Source: an uncultured Spirochaetales bacterium
Lineage (GTDB): Bacteria > Spirochaetota > Spirochaetia > Sphaerochaetales > Sphaerochaetaceae
Reading direction: 5' to 3'
Length of the DNA stretch: 64,000 bases
Assembly: GCA_949297785.1 (NCBI GenBank)
Contig: CASFTW010000004.1
Span: forward strand, 1 to 64,000
Of the stretch, positions 43,005-49,927 are shown piece by piece (position 1 is the stretch's first letter; the number at the start of each line of letters is the position of its first letter). Position numbers and translations under genes: made by a program. The notes below the pieces were generated by a model, which was not told the DNA's origin, did not search any database, and worked only from the letters and a program-made list of their open reading frames with translations.

Positions 43005-43931
43005 ATGACAGCCGCAATAATCATAACCGTCATCATAATATTCATCTGGTGGAATACCTGCCTTCCTTTTTACAAAGACCGCAATAAGGAAAAGCTTGCA
43101 AGTGACGAGTCAAAATGCTTTTCACCTGAATGCCGGAGCATTATCTATGAAAACGGAAACAAGCAAGCTGTGCTGATGATCCACGGCTATCCCACCACGC
43201 CTCATATGTACGCATACAGTGCTTCAAGACTGTCCGATGCAGGCTATGATGTCTTTGTACCGCTTATCCCGACATTCGGAGCGGATCCCGCGGAATTCAT
43301 GAATACAGACTTCACCCAGTGGTTCAGTTTCATTGATGATTATTATACCGGCCTGAGAAAAAGATATGACAAGGTATATGTGATCGGCACCTCGATGGGA
43401 GGAGCGATGACACTGAAACTGGCAGAGAAATATTCGTCCACTTCCCTTGCAATGGACAAGATTGTTTCAATCTCGGCTCCGGTCTGCTACAATGCCCTGC
43501 TGCGATATGGCATTGTGACAAACCCCGCAGCATATATAGCCAGAACCATAGGACTCTTCAGAAAGACAATAGGTCTCAGCATCGCCAACGGACGGTCTGA
43601 CGGCGAAGACGGAAACGAGGAATGGCTCGGCTACAGCGGAACAGTCATAAACCATGGGCTGTCTTTGTGGAAAGCTTTCAACAGAATCGGAAAGGATCTT
43701 TCAGCCATAAAGGTTCCGATGTTTGTCATGCATGACAGAGGCGACAGAACCGTACCTTTCAGAAATATCAGGATAATAGAAAAGCATTGCCGTGATCATA
43801 TTGTATGCGCAAGGGAAGTTGAAATGGACAGACACTATAAACATTCCCATCATGCTCTTCTGATGTACCATTCAGTACAGAAAGGCTATACTGATGAAAT
43901 AACAGAATTTCTCAAAGGAGGAGATGAATAA
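43005..43931 (+). CDS. Membrane-anchored alpha/beta hydrolase (esterase or lipase-like)
   Basis: The start at 43005 is chosen because the open frame upstream runs through the oadB terminator. The 308-residue protein has an N-terminal membrane helix (residues 2-18), the oxyanion block MIHGYPTTP, the nucleophile Ser in GTSMGG, Asp in [11 protein letters not shown] and His in [11 protein letters not shown]. It resembles carboxylesterase/monoglyceride lipase proteins. It is followed by the dCMP deaminase gene with one base shared between stop and start. Confidence 0.88.
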
Positions 43932-44413
43932 TGACCAAACGTTCTGATTACATAAGCTGGGATGAATATTTCATGGGAGTCGCCATGCTTTCATCCATGC
44001 GCAGCAAGGATCCCAACACACAGGTCGGAGCCTGCATAGTGAATGAGGACAGGAAAATCGTCGGTGTCGGCTACAACGGTTTTCCCACAGGCTGCTGCGA
44101 TGATGATCTTCCATGGGAGAGAGAGGGAGAATGGATTGATACAAAATACCCTTATGTATGTCATGCAGAGCTGAATGCAATCCTCAACTCCATCGGAGGC
44201 AACCTTAAAGGATGCACGCTCTATGTTGCCCTTTTCCCGTGCAACGAATGTGCGAAAGCCATAATACAGTCCGGCATCAAGAAGATAATCTACCTTTCGG
44301 ACAAGTATGCGGAAACAGACGGTACAAAGGCAAGCAAAAGGATGCTTTCAGAGGCCGGAGTTGAATTCATCCAGCTCAGGCCCCAGAAAAAAGAATTAGT
44401 CATAAAGTTCTGA
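43931..44413 (+). CDS. Deoxycytidylate (dCMP) deaminase
   Basis: The 160-residue enzyme has zinc ligands His78 and Glu80 in HAE, and Cys104 and Cys107 in PCNEC, the cytidine deaminase signature, plus [15 protein letters not shown]-like N-terminal sequence of ComEB/dCMP deaminases. It provides dUMP for thymidylate synthesis. GGAGG lies before the start. Its 3' end overlaps the convergent metal-binding-protein gene by 18 bases. Confidence 0.94.
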
Positions 44414-45148
44414 CAGTGCTCTGATATTCTCCCTCACCATGTTCTCAAGCGCATTACGGCCGGAAGCCGGGGGAAAGTTCCTCCAGATGACAAGCTTTGC
44501 ACCGCTGACTTCCGCAAGCGGGGCGGCAACCGGGTTATGGTAATTGTCGATGATGAGATCATAATCACTTTCAGCCGCCTCCTGTATCTGGCCGGCTGAA
44601 AGTTCATTGCCGCCGAATGTTGCGACAATGTTGAGGCCAAGATCCTCAGCCAGAGGCACCTGCATCGTATGACAGCAGACCTCAAGCTCATCAAGAGAGA
44701 GCTCCTCAACCATCCTCCGTCCTTCATTGACAGTTTCCACATAACCCTCATAACGCGGAGTGGTGCCGGTATATGATGCTATGAGTTCGGCCATCTCAAT
44801 CACGGTCTGTCTGTCGTTTTCCGTCGTTATCGCAATGTCCACACGGTCCCCGGAAGGAATTCCTGCCTGAATCGTTGTCATCATTCTTTCATATCCTGCA
44901 TAAATGAAGAACGTGGCATTCTGGATCTCGATGATATCGGAAGGAGTCAGCTCATACTCAGGGGGATGCCTGAGTTCAGCCGGTGCGATCACCGCAATGT
45001 CATCAACACCTGCAAGGTCCGCAAAAGCCGCTGTCCATGAGGTGGATGCAACAGCTGTATGGGCCGTGCTTTCCATTGAGGCCTGTGCTGAAAGCCATGA
45101 CAGTGATGAAGCAAGGACAGCTGTCATAAGTAAAAAGAATTTCTTCAT
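44396..45148 (-). CDS. Metal ABC transporter substrate-binding protein (ZnuA/TroA-like, minimal)
   Basis: The 250-residue precursor starts with a signal peptide (residues 1-23, ending SAQA). The binding protein fold is recognised from [14 protein letters not shown] (first metal His) and [14 protein letters not shown], and ends in [13 protein letters not shown]. It is shorter than most family members and lacks the His-rich loop of ZnuA, so metal preference (zinc or manganese) is open. It is the third gene of the uptake operon and overlaps the permease start by 4 bases. Confidence 0.87.
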
Positions 45149-45948
45149 AATGATTTTTCCTTTCTGTGCGGAATCAGAATATATATGAGCGCGCTTGATG
45201 CGGCGATCATGCTGGAAGGAGGCATGTCCAGAACCAGTGAGAGCATGAAGCCGGTCACTGCAGTAAGGAGTCCCATGAGAGACGCCGTGATGAAAAGCTT
45301 CCTTATGCTGCCGGCAATCTTCAGTGCAATGACAGCCGGGAGTATGAGAAGAGCATCGATGAGGAGCGAGCCTACAAAACGCATGGACAGTGCGACGGCG
45401 AATGCGATGAGGAAGACCATCACAGTTTCGTGAAGAGAGATGTTTTTTCCGCTGGAAAGCGCCACATCCCTGTCGAAGAATACAAGAAGTATTGTCCTGA
45501 AATTGAATACCGTATAAAGAATGATCAGAAGTGACAGAACGGCGAAAGCGGCAAGTTCACCCGTCTGCACGGTGAACGGGGATCCCCACAGCAGTTCAAG
45601 AGTATCTTTTGACGGGACATCCGCCGCCTGGGTTATGATCGCGGCAAGGGCAACAGAGAGAACCATGAGAAAGGCAGATGAAATTCCCATGTTGAGTTTT
45701 CCCTTTCTTGAAAGGAGCAGGATGAGAATCACGGTAAGGGTGCACATGAGCACATACACAGGAATGGAGGGAAGATCAAGGGCCAGAGCAAGCGCACCGC
45801 CAAGCAGCAGGCCGTGCATGAGGGTGTATCTCAGCTGCAGGAGATTCATGCGAAGCACCATGACACCGGCAAGAGGAAATGCGGCTCCTGCGAACAGAAG
45901 ACTTATGAATGCCCTGAAGATGGGAGGAAGAAGGAGAAGACTAAACAA
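45145..45948 (-). CDS. Metal ABC transporter permease (ZnuB-like)
   Basis: The start is a TTG at 45948, which has a perfect AAGGAGG at five bases and gives 267 residues; the frame runs open further upstream, where it overlaps the ATPase gene. The protein has about eight membrane helices and family patterns (LAGVMVLRMNLLQLRYTLMHG, LLSRKGKLN, SMRFVGSLLIDALLILPA). It follows the ATPase by a small overlap and precedes the binding protein. Confidence 0.88.
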   Translation of the reverse strand: MFSLLLLPPIFRAFISLLFAGAAFPLAGVMVLRMNLLQLRYTLMHGLLLGGALALALDLPSIPVYVLMCTLTVILILLLSRKGKLNMGISSAFLMVLSVALAAIITQAADVPSKDTLELLWGSPFTVQTGELAAFAVLSLLIILYTVFNFRTILLVFFDRDVALSSGKNISLHETVMVFLIAFAVALSMRFVGSLLIDALLILPAVIALKIAGSIRKLFITASLMGLLTAVTGFMLSLVLDMPPSSMIAASSALIYILIPHRKEKSL

Positions 45949-46954
45949 GAACACCTCCTTCCAGACGCCGGCGGGGCCATGACAGCAGGTCGGAGAGCGC
46001 CTTGTCATGGTTTACTATCAGCATTGTAGGCATTTCAGTGACTGACAGAGAGGTCATTATTGCAGCAAAGTTCTCCCTAGCCTCCCTGTCAAGGCTTGCA
46101 GAAGGCTCGTCAAAAAGCAGAAGCTTCGCCCTGCTTGCAAGCACGCGGGCCAGATTCACCTTTGCCATCTCCCCTCCCGAAAGGGAAAAGAACTGCCTGT
46201 CTATAAGATGATACGCACCGCATCGCCTCAGTGCGACTTCAATCTCACCTTCCCTGTCCTGCGTATCATCCGGGAGCGACAGTGCTACAACTTCCCTGCT
46301 GGTGAACGGGAAATCCTGTTTGTCGGAAAACTGCTTTATGTAACCCACAGGAGGTCTTTCTTCCTTTCCGTCATAAAGTATCCTGCCCGCTGCAGGTTTT
46401 TCGAGACCGAGAATGAGACGCAGCAGAGTGGTCTTTCCGCATCCGTTGTCACCTTCGAGAATCATGGCATCCCCCTTTTCAAGATAAAGGGAGAAACCGT
46501 CAAGTATCTTCTTTGAGCCGTATGAGAAGTTCAGATTCTCTATTTTCAGCGATATGCCGCTCGTCAGATCGGCTTTCTTTCTCAGAAGCCTGTATGCCTC
46601 ATCAAGCGTCATTGAAGGACTGATCATGGTTTCCGTTATGCATTTGATCCTGTCCACAAGCTTTGTGTAATGCACCTCCACATCGTAATTTCTGTACAAT
46701 TCAAGTGCAAGGGATGAGATCATGTCGACATTAACAGCCCTGACGGAAAGCCTTATGGTGAGAAATGCCGCCGCAAGACCGGAAATGCTGTCATGAAGTG
46801 TCAGATTGTCATACTGCCGTCCGCTTTTTCTTATGAAATCCTCAGCTTCGAAAAGCGGATGAAGCCACTTGCCTCTGCTCTGGAATATAAGGTCACCGTC
46901 GTTGAAAAGTTCAAGGGAACAGCCTTGTGACAAAGAGGAAAGATATGTATGCAT
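45941..46954 (-). CDS. Metal ABC transporter ATPase with an N-terminal DUF1893-like domain
   Basis: The ATG at 46954 gives 337 residues. Residues 1 to about 115 (LELFNDGDLIFQSRGKWLHP, LHDSISGLAAAFLTIR, LALELYRNYDVE) match what I know of DUF1893, a small domain of deaminase-like fold found alone in Thermotoga TM1506. From about 135 an ABC ATPase follows: Walker A GDNGCGKTT at 168-176, signature SLSGGEMAKVNLA, and LLLFDEPSASLD. The longer frame to 47071 includes the promoter and an inverted repeat, so it is not used. The domain may sense a ligand or regulate the ATPase; that is speculation. Confidence 0.85.
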   Translation of the reverse strand: MHTYLSSLSQGCSLELFNDGDLIFQSRGKWLHPLFEAEDFIRKSGRQYDNLTLHDSISGLAAAFLTIRLSVRAVNVDMISSLALELYRNYDVEVHYTKLVDRIKCITETMISPSMTLDEAYRLLRKKADLTSGISLKIENLNFSYGSKKILDGFSLYLEKGDAMILEGDNGCGKTTLLRLILGLEKPAAGRILYDGKEERPPVGYIKQFSDKQDFPFTSREVVALSLPDDTQDREGEIEVALRRCGAYHLIDRQFFSLSGGEMAKVNLARVLASRAKLLLFDEPSASLDREARENFAAIMTSLSVTEMPTMLIVNHDKALSDLLSWPRRRLEGGVLV

Positions 46955-46964
46955 AACAGGAAAA

Positions 46965-47016
46965 ATCCTAAGACAGAGATGTGATGCTGTCAATACAAAA
47001 ACTGACACATTGTCAG
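46965..47016 (-). promoter_or_regulatory. Promoter of the metal-uptake operon with a palindrome upstream
   Basis: On the minus strand a perfect TTGACA (46988-46993) is followed after 17 bases by TAGGAT (46965-46970); the ATG at 46954 is 10 bases further, so the leader would be only a few bases. Upstream of the -35, CTGACA-CAT-TGTCAG (47002-47016) is a perfect 6-3-6 inverted repeat that could be a metal-responsive operator shared with the divergent gene. Confidence 0.65.
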
Positions 47017-47043
47017 AATAAAGACGGTAAAATTCTTTTTCCT

Positions 47044-47071
47044 TTGAAAAAGAGTGAAACTGGTGTATCAT
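47044..47071 (+). promoter_or_regulatory. Candidate promoter of the xanthine dehydrogenase gene
   Basis: TTGAAA (47044-47049) and TATCAT (47066-47071) are separated by 16 bases. If used, transcription starts near 47078 and leaves a leader of about 290 nt before the TTG start at 47372. Confidence 0.45.
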
Positions 47072-47136
47072 TTACAAGAGATTCAGCAGGATAGCTCCCA
47101 TCTTTCAGGATGTGAGATGGAATGCTGGAATGAAAG

Positions 47137-47318
47137 GTGTGAAAACACTGCTGCTTGCAGGCCGGCATATGATGTCCTGCACCCATGAGGAACACATGGG
47201 TACTCCGGGAAAGCAGTTGCCGGACTTCGATACCTTGCAAGAGATGTTCAGGCATTCTGCTGTGAGACCGGAAGCTTCCATCCTCCAGGATGGCGGCAGT
47301 TCACTAGACTTTGGTATC
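47137..47318 (+). promoter_or_regulatory. Structured 5' leader of the xanthine dehydrogenase gene, candidate riboswitch
   Basis: Bases 47154-47241 can fold into four nested helices. P1 is 47154-47161 with 47234-47241 (8 pairs, one G-U), P2 is 47162-47167 with 47218-47223 (6 pairs), P3 is 47177-47180 with 47213-47216, and P4 is 47181-47186 with 47196-47201 (ACCCAT/ATGGGT, 9-base loop). A separate hairpin with a GAAA tetraloop (GTGT-GAAA-ACAC, 47137-47148) precedes it. A CCATCC/GGATGG hairpin (47278-47293) follows. GATACC at 47229-47234 is complementary to GGTATC at 47313-47318, which offers a competing fold that would disrupt P1. The interval has no supported gene. The ligand, if any, is unknown; molybdenum cofactor or a purine would fit the gene downstream. 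Confidence 0.55.
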
Positions 47319-47371
47319 ACAGAAAAGCTCAGCGGCCAAAGCTTTCAAAACAGAAAAAGAGGTGATTAATC

Positions 47372-49927
47372 TTGTCTTTCACAGTAAACGTAAACGGAAG
47401 GGATTATTCATCTTCCTCGGACATGAAACTCCTCACCTTCCTGCGTGACATACTGCACCTGACAGGAACGAAAAACGGCTGCAGCGAAGGGGCCTGCGGT
47501 TCCTGCACCGTACTTGTTGACGGTAAAAAGACAAAGGCCTGCGTACCGGTGCTCTCCAGGCTTGAAGGAAAGAAGATAGTTACAATCGAAGGACTGAGTG
47601 AAAGGGAAAAACAGGTATATTCATATGCTTTCGGCAAAGCAGGAGCTGTTCAGTGCGGTTTCTGCACTCCGGGTATGGTGATGTGCGCGAAAAGCCTGCT
47701 GGATGTGAATCTTAATCCTTCACGGGAAGACATAAGGAAAGCGATAAAGGGGAATATCTGCCGCTGTACGGGATATGTGAAGATTGAGGATGCGATAAAG
47801 CTTGCAGCCGCAATCATGAGGGGAGAAGAAAAGACAGAGGAAGACAGCGATACAGGTTTCTCCTCCAGGATGATCAGGGTTGATGCCAAGGAAAAGACAC
47901 TGGGAACAGGTATTTACACTGATGACATCCATATTGACGGCATGCTTTACGGAAAATGTCTGAGAAGCGCCTATCCGCGCTCCCGGGTGCTCAGTATAGA
48001 CACAGCAGCAGCAGAAGCCCATCCGTCCTGCATCGCAGTGTTCAGGGCTGAAGATGTTCCATGCAATGAACACGGACACATAATAAAGGACTGGCCTGTT
48101 TTCATAAAGGAAGGAGAAATCACACATTATACGGGTGATGCGATCTGCATGGCAGTCACAGACAGAGAAGACGCACTTGAAGAGATTCTACAGCTCATCA
48201 AAGTCGACTATGAGGTGCTTGAAGGCGTCTTTGATGCCCATAGCGCGCTTGAAGACAGAATCCTTGTCCACGAAGGACGCAGCAATCTTCTTACAAAAGA
48301 ACATATTGAAAGGGGAAATGTGGATGAAACACTGAAGAAATGCGCATACACAGTCTCTCTTTCATTCAGAACCGGGCATACTGAACATGCGTTCATGGAA
48401 CCGGAATGTGCAGTCGGGACCTATGATGCGGAAAATGACGGAGTCATAGTATATACCTCTGGTCAGAGCGTGTACGATGAACAGAGAGAGATCTCCCATA
48501 TGCTCCATCTTGATAAAAGCAGGGTGCGCTGCATAAGCATGCTTGTCGGCGGCGGCTTCGGAGGTAAGGAAGACATGTCAGTCCAGCATCATGCAGCTCT
48601 TGCCGCATACATCCTCAGACGCCCGGTAAAAGTAAAGCTCACCAGACAGGAAAGTCTCATCGTTCATCCCAAACGGCATCCCATGGACATCGATCTGACG
48701 CTGGGATGCGATGAAAAAGGATTTCTCAAGGCTCTGGACTGCCGGATTACCGCTGACAGCGGAGCATATGCATCCCTCGGTGGTCCTGTCCTCCAGAGAG
48801 CCTGCACCCATGCGGCAGGTCCGTACAATTACCAGAATATAAGGATTGAGGGGTACGGGCTTTACACGAACAATGTCCCATCCGGTGCCTACCGGGGTTT
48901 CGGCGTCACGCAGTCATGCTATGCAATCGAGGAAGCTGTGGATGTCCTTGCCAAAAAGGCCGGTCTTGATCCTTTTGTCTTCCGTCTTCAGAATGCGCTC
49001 AAACCCGGAGATGTGATGCCGAACGGGCAGATTGCCTCCCCTGACACAGGTATCAGGGAGTGCCTTGAAGCTGTCAGGGCTGCCTATTACGGCAGCAGCC
49101 GCACAGGTATCGCCTGCGGTCTCAAGAACAGCGGACTGGGAGTCGGTGTCGTTGATACCGGACGCTGTATCATATCCGTGGAAAAAGGATATGTTCATGT
49201 GCGGACCTCGGCAGCATGCATGGGACAGGGACTTGCCACAGTCGCCACCCAGATAACGGCAGAGACTGCCGGTATATCACCTGACATGATCATTGTTGAG
49301 AGCCCCGATACATCACGCACTCCTGACAGCGGAACATCGACAGCCTCACGCCAGACCGCATTCACGGGAGAAGCTGTCAGAAGAGCCGCAGAAAAGCTTA
49401 AAAAAGCAATTGAGGAAAGCGGCATGCAGGCACTTGAAGGAAAAGAATTCAGCGGTGAATTCACATACGAGACAGATCCCATAAACAGCGATAAACCAAA
49501 TCCCATCTCACATCTTGCCTACAGCTACTCCGCCCAGGTTGTCGAACTTGATGAGAACAATGACATAAAGAAGGTTTATGCTGCCTGCGATGCAGGAACC
49601 GTCATAAACATGACTGCCATCGAAGGACAGATCGAGGGCGGTGTCGTAATGGGTATCGGCTATGCGCTGAGCGAGAAATTCATAACCGATCAAGGCTATG
49701 TTAAATCAAAATACGGGACGCTCGGTCTTCTGCGCTCGACTGACGTGCCCGCGATAGAGACGATCCTCGTACACGGCCCCGGCAAAGGCAGTGCTGCATA
49801 CGGAGCAAAAGGAATCGGAGAACTGTGCACCATACCCACAGCTCCTGCAATCGGCAATGCTTTCTACAGACAGGACGGTATCGTCAGGACAAGTCTTCCT
49901 ATGAAGAAGCCTGAGAAGAATGAATGA
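47372..49927 (+). CDS. Selenium-dependent-type xanthine dehydrogenase (2Fe-2S and molybdenum domains in one chain, no FAD domain)
   Basis: The start is a TTG at 47372 with AGAGGTGA upstream. The 851-residue protein has two 2Fe-2S clusters in the first 160 residues (CSEGACGSC and CGFCTPGM...CRCTGY) and then the large molybdopterin domain, with GGGFGGKED, GAYRGFGVTQ and the catalytic Glu817 in GAKGIGE. There is no FAD domain between them, the organisation of the family annotated as selenium-dependent xanthine dehydrogenase (TIGR03311). It would oxidise purines or other N-heterocycles. No maturation genes (xdhC, moco genes) are in the window. The 3' end overlaps the convergent RNase D gene by 29 bases. 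Confidence 0.9.
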   Translation: MSFTVNVNGRDYSSSSDMKLLTFLRDILHLTGTKNGCSEGACGSCTVLVDGKKTKACVPVLSRLEGKKIVTIEGLSEREKQVYSYAFGKAGAVQCGFCTPGMVMCAKSLLDVNLNPSREDIRKAIKGNICRCTGYVKIEDAIKLAAAIMRGEEKTEEDSDTGFSSRMIRVDAKEKTLGTGIYTDDIHIDGMLYGKCLRSAYPRSRVLSIDTAAAEAHPSCIAVFRAEDVPCNEHGHIIKDWPVFIKEGEITHYTGDAICMAVTDREDALEEILQLIKVDYEVLEGVFDAHSALEDRILVHEGRSNLLTKEHIERGNVDETLKKCAYTVSLSFRTGHTEHAFMEPECAVGTYDAENDGVIVYTSGQSVYDEQREISHMLHLDKSRVRCISMLVGGGFGGKEDMSVQHHAALAAYILRRPVKVKLTRQESLIVHPKRHPMDIDLTLGCDEKGFLKALDCRITADSGAYASLGGPVLQRACTHAAGPYNYQNIRIEGYGLYTNNVPSGAYRGFGVTQSCYAIEEAVDVLAKKAGLDPFVFRLQNALKPGDVMPNGQIASPDTGIRECLEAVRAAYYGSSRTGIACGLKNSGLGVGVVDTGRCIISVEKGYVHVRTSAACMGQGLATVATQITAETAGISPDMIIVESPDTSRTPDSGTSTASRQTAFTGEAVRRAAEKLKKAIEESGMQALEGKEFSGEFTYETDPINSDKPNPISHLAYSYSAQVVELDENNDIKKVYAACDAGTVINMTAIEGQIEGGVVMGIGYALSEKFITDQGYVKSKYGTLGLLRSTDVPAIETILVHGPGKGSAAYGAKGIGELCTIPTAPAIGNAFYRQDGIVRTSLPMKKPEKNE

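Follow-up and report, generated by a model that had tools for sequence, protein, structure and literature searches.

The question raised by this locus is what occupies the space between the predicted promoter and the start codon of a molybdenum hydroxylase gene, and whether it regulates that gene. The window analysed here, a stretch of 64,000 nucleotides from an uncultured Spirochaetales bacterium, had been given a sequence-only reading in which the interval 47078-47371 was a single structured leader RNA and a candidate riboswitch. Our comparison with related genomes instead indicates, with a probability of roughly 85%, that the interval holds two unrelated things, namely a miniature IS200/IS605-type element (47076-47304) and, a few bases downstream, a small conserved leader RNA (47309-47341). 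The gene and its control region are arranged as follows.

47044-47071, + strand: predicted promoter of the dehydrogenase gene, with -35 TTGAAA (47044-47049), a 16-nt spacer and -10 TATCAT (47066-47071), from the sequence
47309-47341, + strand: conserved leader RNA of 33 nt, from the match to covariance model R1 (23.4 bits, the only match in its genome), the family alignment and covariation
47357-47366, + strand: region of the probable ribosome-binding site, AAGAGGTGAT, before the TTG start at 47372, from the sequence
47372-49927, + strand: selenium-dependent xanthine dehydrogenase of 851 aa (TIGR03311, equivalog Se_dep_XDH, 1225 bits, cut-off 830)

Both promoter-like hexamers are present at the left, where the earlier reading had put a promoter. 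Its description of the downstream gene as a purine- or heterocycle-oxidising molybdoenzyme was likewise right, and the TIGR03311 match sharpens it to selenium-dependent xanthine dehydrogenase. The SDMH maturation gene yqeB is found in the same genome (TIGR03309, 354 bits against a cut-off of 220). Gut anaerobes can feed on xanthine and uric acid by means of selenium-dependent molybdenum hydroxylases (PMC11448449); in the open-access literature we found nothing on RNA control of the genes for these enzymes. As for the gene neighborhood (window 43931-44413 and 44396-47071), the dehydrogenase has a ComEB-like dCMP deaminase gene upstream of it, with three zinc-type ABC transporter genes on the opposite strand between the two; in several relatives (e.g., L138, L140-L144, L148 and L149) the deaminase gene apparently stands directly before the motif or the dehydrogenase gene.

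Comparison of the leaders of orthologous genes showed that part of the sequence from the promoter to the start codon is conserved, for example GGTATCACAGACCGCTGT...ACAGAAGCTAAGCGGCC. A covariance model, R1, was built from the leaders of ten relatives with the window left out, and it matched 69 of the 139 genomes of the family, among them that of the window at 47306-47344 (23.4 bits, E 0.028). A second model, R2, added 12 genomes, giving 81 of 139 in all; note that R2 and the alignment A4 include the window sequence, so that the 33.8 bits scored by the window are not independent. An independent search placed the dehydrogenase gene itself in 126 of the 139 genomes. Almost all R1 matches (68 of 70) lie 12-124 nt upstream of the dehydrogenase gene on the same strand, with a median of 34.5 nt, and the two exceptions are one match at a contig end and one weak match. 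Furthermore, the sequence TTGAC occurs 26-50 nt upstream of the motif, mostly at 31-39 nt, in 49 of 67 leaders as compared with 1.4 in shuffled sequences, a spacing by which transcripts are predicted to begin at the motif. In the window, the -10 box and the motif are separated by the insertion. The earlier claim of a leader RNA before a molybdenum hydroxylase gene thus holds for the last part of the interval, 47309-47341, which is conserved and covarying in at least 81 related genomes, and does not hold for the fold at 47154-47293 on which it had been based.

A scan of 393 genomes of the phylum found it in 17, all in one spirochaete family, using strict filters that missed the window's own weak copy and that divergent relatives elsewhere could escape. 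When 84,980 species were scanned for the exact pattern, all 14 matches fell in Spirochaetales or Spirochaetaceae; both scans favor close relatives of the model. All copies detected are from one spirochaete family.

The copy in the window consists of a helix P1, CUUUGGU (47309-47315) paired with GCCAAAG (47335-47341), an internal loop of AUCAC (47316-47320) and CAGCG (47330-47334), and a helix P2 of AG (47321-47322) and CU (47328-47329) closed by the loop AAAAG. The same plan is seen in the 69 aligned copies, which have P1, a 5x5 internal loop AUCAC/NAGCG, a P2a of 2-3 bp and a P2b of highly variable length. Nine core columns (A13, C15, A16, C17, G19, C146, A149, G150 and G152) do not vary in any of the 69 copies. 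The pairs were changed on both sides 139 times, against 52 ± 5 in shuffled and 20-36 in slid controls, counts which lean towards the model because the A4 alignment was fitted to the structure; an independent alignment of ten sequences also shows covariation (17 vs 7). Both-sided changes occur in some copy for 11 of the 15 pairs; the column pair 18-147 is A-U, G-U or U-A, and 12-153 is U-G, C-G or U-A. In L107, L108 and L110 (genomes G104, G108 and G097), U and A stand where nearly all others have A-U, a clean compensatory change adjoining the invariant loop.

P2 is not always extended. A short class in another genus has it reduced to GCC/GGC, and the window copy goes further, with P2 shrunk to 2 bp and none of the invariant core bases lost. 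This shrinkage is not due to the insertion, since the genome G001, in which the insertion is missing, has nearly the same short form. Taken alone, the window copy folds no better than its shuffles (z -0.62). An extended helix CCGCU/AGCGG within the leader RNA was considered and dropped, as it is not kept in distant copies.

A search of the window and 30 related leaders with the covariance models of Rfam 15 gave no relevant match, either at the gathering threshold or at E values up to 5-10, and known RNA families including Moco RNA and the purine and xanthine-I riboswitches were ruled out for the leader on these grounds. The window as a whole matched neither Moco RNA (RF01055) nor the purine families, the candidates that the sequence-only reading had proposed for such a search. 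Open-access literature on riboswitches together with xanthine dehydrogenase, spirochaetes or Sphaerochaeta yielded no report of the element. Purine aptamers are built around a three-way junction; Moco RNA exceeds the 33-nt leader element in size. The purine riboswitches with their variants (PMC9295807) and Moco RNA resemble what might be expected here in that their ligands are plausible for a xanthine dehydrogenase gene, but neither matches the leader. The NMT1 (xanthine-I) riboswitch, which according to PMC7373994 is exclusive to Proteobacteria, shares with the leader RNA the form of a small two-helix rod with a highly conserved internal junction, and the link to purine oxidation (PMC7373994, PMC8266621). 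However, its junction strand, G7-A8-A9-G10-C11-G12 (PMC8266621), differs from the leader RNA loop, it accompanies different genes, and cmscan with Rfam 15 did not connect the two.

Since both strands of the loop are conserved, a single gene is the target and the position is 5', the leader RNA 47309-47341 probably acts in cis on xanthine dehydrogenase. A conserved structured leader, covariation and a consistent gene association are all present, as in riboswitches. Among the possible modes of action we tentatively put a ligand-binding riboswitch first, at somewhat less than even odds. The RNA, normally placed at the predicted start of the mRNA, is a short hairpin whose invariant 5x5 internal loop, as the candidate aptamer, would bind a purine or a related metabolite and thereby alter translation initiation. 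In the window's genome and in G010, the insertion shifts the leader RNA by about 229 nt from the predicted 5' end while leaving its core intact. With similar reserve, the element of 33-60 nt (longer where P2 is extended) could represent a new riboswitch class confined to this spirochaete family; its ligand would be a purine, the molybdenum cofactor or a selenium compound, and the dehydrogenase its target. Being compact, conserved and tied to a single gene, such an RNA lends itself to direct testing.

Pairing between the 3' strand of P1 and the ribosome-binding site did not exceed that in swapped controls (p 0.08), and no general expression platform emerged from this comparison; a general anti-Shine-Dalgarno switch through this strand, compared with swapped and shuffled partners, was not significant overall and was set aside. 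In L112, L115, L119, L069 and L068, the P1 3' strand (CUAAUCAUU) could base-pair with UGAUGAGG in the vicinity of the ribosome-binding site, and in the genera of these loci this pairing possibly forms a lineage-specific expression platform.

The main alternative, ranked second and rather unlikely in our judgment, is that the leader element is bound by a protein which represses the xanthine dehydrogenase mRNA or protects it. Such a binding site would fit the small hairpin with its invariant internal loop where the mRNA is predicted to begin, the highly variable second helix and the lack of a general expression platform, but invariant bases on both strands of a loop are equally usual in aptamers, and no candidate protein was identified. 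Third, and improbable, is a passive 5' hairpin that stabilizes or insulates the mRNA; the motif is indeed where transcripts of most relatives are predicted to start, and the window copy retains a 7-bp P1 with P2 nearly gone. However, stability alone would not require the nine core positions to be invariant while the stems are free to vary, and the element is restricted to one gene.

The leader RNA at 47309-47341 is distinct from the stable fold upstream of it, which belongs to the following features.

47071-47075, + strand: TTTAC, left-flank target sequence of the insertion (TTTAC or TTTTAC precedes the left end in L050, L043 and L034; L047 has TTTA A)
47076-47304, + strand: 229-bp non-autonomous IS200/IS605-type element, missing from G001, at the same site in G010 (98%), with a second copy at G010:C18 (86%)
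47076-47135, + strand: left end of the element, with an imperfect hairpin (positions 6-60 of the insert are 75-77% identical to the left ends of the full-length copies L047, L050 and L043)
47127-47279, + strand: what remains of a tnpB 3' end (its six-frame translation matches TnpB residues 384-434 at 53% identity, E 2.3e-11)
47154-47241, + strand: four-helix fold of the earlier reading (z -4.23; outer helices paired in 48-71% of cells over 28 copies)
47181-47201, + strand: inner hairpin ACCCATG/CATGGGT, conserved among tnpB copies (96% of cells paired, 28 copies)
47278-47304, + strand: right end, with the hairpin CCATCC/GGATGG (47278-47293) and the terminal GTTCAC (47299-47304), which ends 26 of 28 aligned copies

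On sequence comparison, 47076-47304 is a non-autonomous IS200/IS605-type element in which a left end is fused to a tnpB 3' end and a right end, as argued by a near-empty site, a second copy, the match of both ends to full copies, the TTTAC flank and the GTTCAC end. In G001, whose enzyme is 98% identical, both flanks are present and about 230 bp between them are missing; as an empty site it is imperfect, having TTTTAACAGAC vs TTTAC+TAGAC, with small differences at the junction. G010 carries the same insertion at the same place (98-99% identical), and its second copy of the whole unit, at another site, is 86% identical over 224 bp. Insert positions 55-229 align with the tnpB 3' end and right end of full-length copies. 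When the window's own genome was searched with the interval, three further places were found, all of them tnpB 3' ends of about 76% DNA identity. At G000:C16 this genome has an uninterrupted gene for a TnpB of the same family (444 aa), and the full relative L003 (444 aa) matches the profiles NF040570 (guided_TnpB), PF07282 and PF01385. Y1 transposase was found in 14 of the 16 genomes of the genus, with partial matches in G010; none was detected in the window's own genome (G000, a draft that is 95% complete).

The element resembles IS200/IS605 elements with TnpB and their MITE/PATE-type derivatives in its subterminal hairpins at both ends, the TTTAC target on the left, the GTTCAC right end, the tnpB 3' sequence, the presence of more than one copy and the fact that no target duplication was seen at the insertion. 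It differs from IS200/IS605 elements in being just 229 bp long, without a transposase or a complete tnpB. An internal deletion probably joined an IS200/IS605-type left end to the tnpB 3' end and right end. The miniature element inserted behind TTTAC and so separates the -10 box of the dehydrogenase gene from its leader RNA. The stable fold is the 3' part of the element, the region that encodes the guide-RNA scaffold in TnpB elements, a role assigned here from the family. Among the 28 aligned tnpB copies, clear compensatory conservation is limited to the inner hairpin 47181-47201, in which 4 of 7 pairs are changed on both sides (CG/GU/GC, UA/GC/AU), and this hairpin is a candidate piece of the TnpB guide-RNA scaffold.

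Were the miniature element still to yield a TnpB guide RNA, the start of the leader RNA at 47305-47320 (TAGACTTTGGTATCAC) would be the guide. It is very improbable that the element has been domesticated, so that a scaffold RNA made from the dehydrogenase promoter, with the leader as guide, directs a TnpB encoded elsewhere to the locus or controls the gene: the leader sequence does follow the right end directly (from 47305), a same-family TnpB gene is uninterrupted in the genome and the inner scaffold hairpin is conserved, but the insertion was found in just two close genomes and shows no sign of selection.

The fold itself was reproduced. For the segment 47154-47241 the minimum free energy is -37.4 kcal/mol; 200 dinucleotide shuffles gave -24.1 ± 3.1, and none of them was equally stable. 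In addition, the CCATCC/GGATGG hairpin is there as described; the full interval 47078-47371 is less striking (z -2.0; 4 of 200 shuffles equally good). Several outer-helix pairs are formed in just 2 of the 28 related copies, both of which represent one insertion event, and the outer helices appear mostly specific to the insertion rather than conserved. The complementarity between 47229-47234 (GATACC) and 47313-47318 (GGTATC), proposed as a competing pairing, exists as such. It gives no evidence of a switch, since the two strands differ in origin: GGTATC is part of the conserved motif, GATACC of an insertion missing from a relative. The statement that no gene explains the interval also fails, the tnpB remnant being a reading frame within it, albeit a decayed one. 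Such a frame and the absence of the fold beside orthologues are two of the findings that the earlier reading had itself named as refuting it. A two-state riboswitch for the molybdenum cofactor, molybdate or a purine at 47154-47293 thus has practically no probability despite the stable fold and the suitable type of gene downstream, and was rejected, because the sequence lies inside an IS605-type miniature element with recognizable tnpB coding remnants, is missing beside the closest empty-site orthologue (the near-empty site in G001 already contradicts such a switch) and beside the other orthologues read outside G010, has outer helices that are not conserved and matches nothing in Rfam. The case may serve as a warning that a very stable leader fold can be a transposon remnant, here masking a conserved element a few bases downstream.

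Fragments of tnpB of the same family were also seen at contig ends in the window's genome (G000:C30:21088-21543, C41:4-459, C46 and C23), so that the true copy number there is probably above our count. One tnpB 3' end, L004 1377-1573 on G000:C23, contains a 20-bp tandem duplication (GGAGGAGCGGATGTCAGACT).
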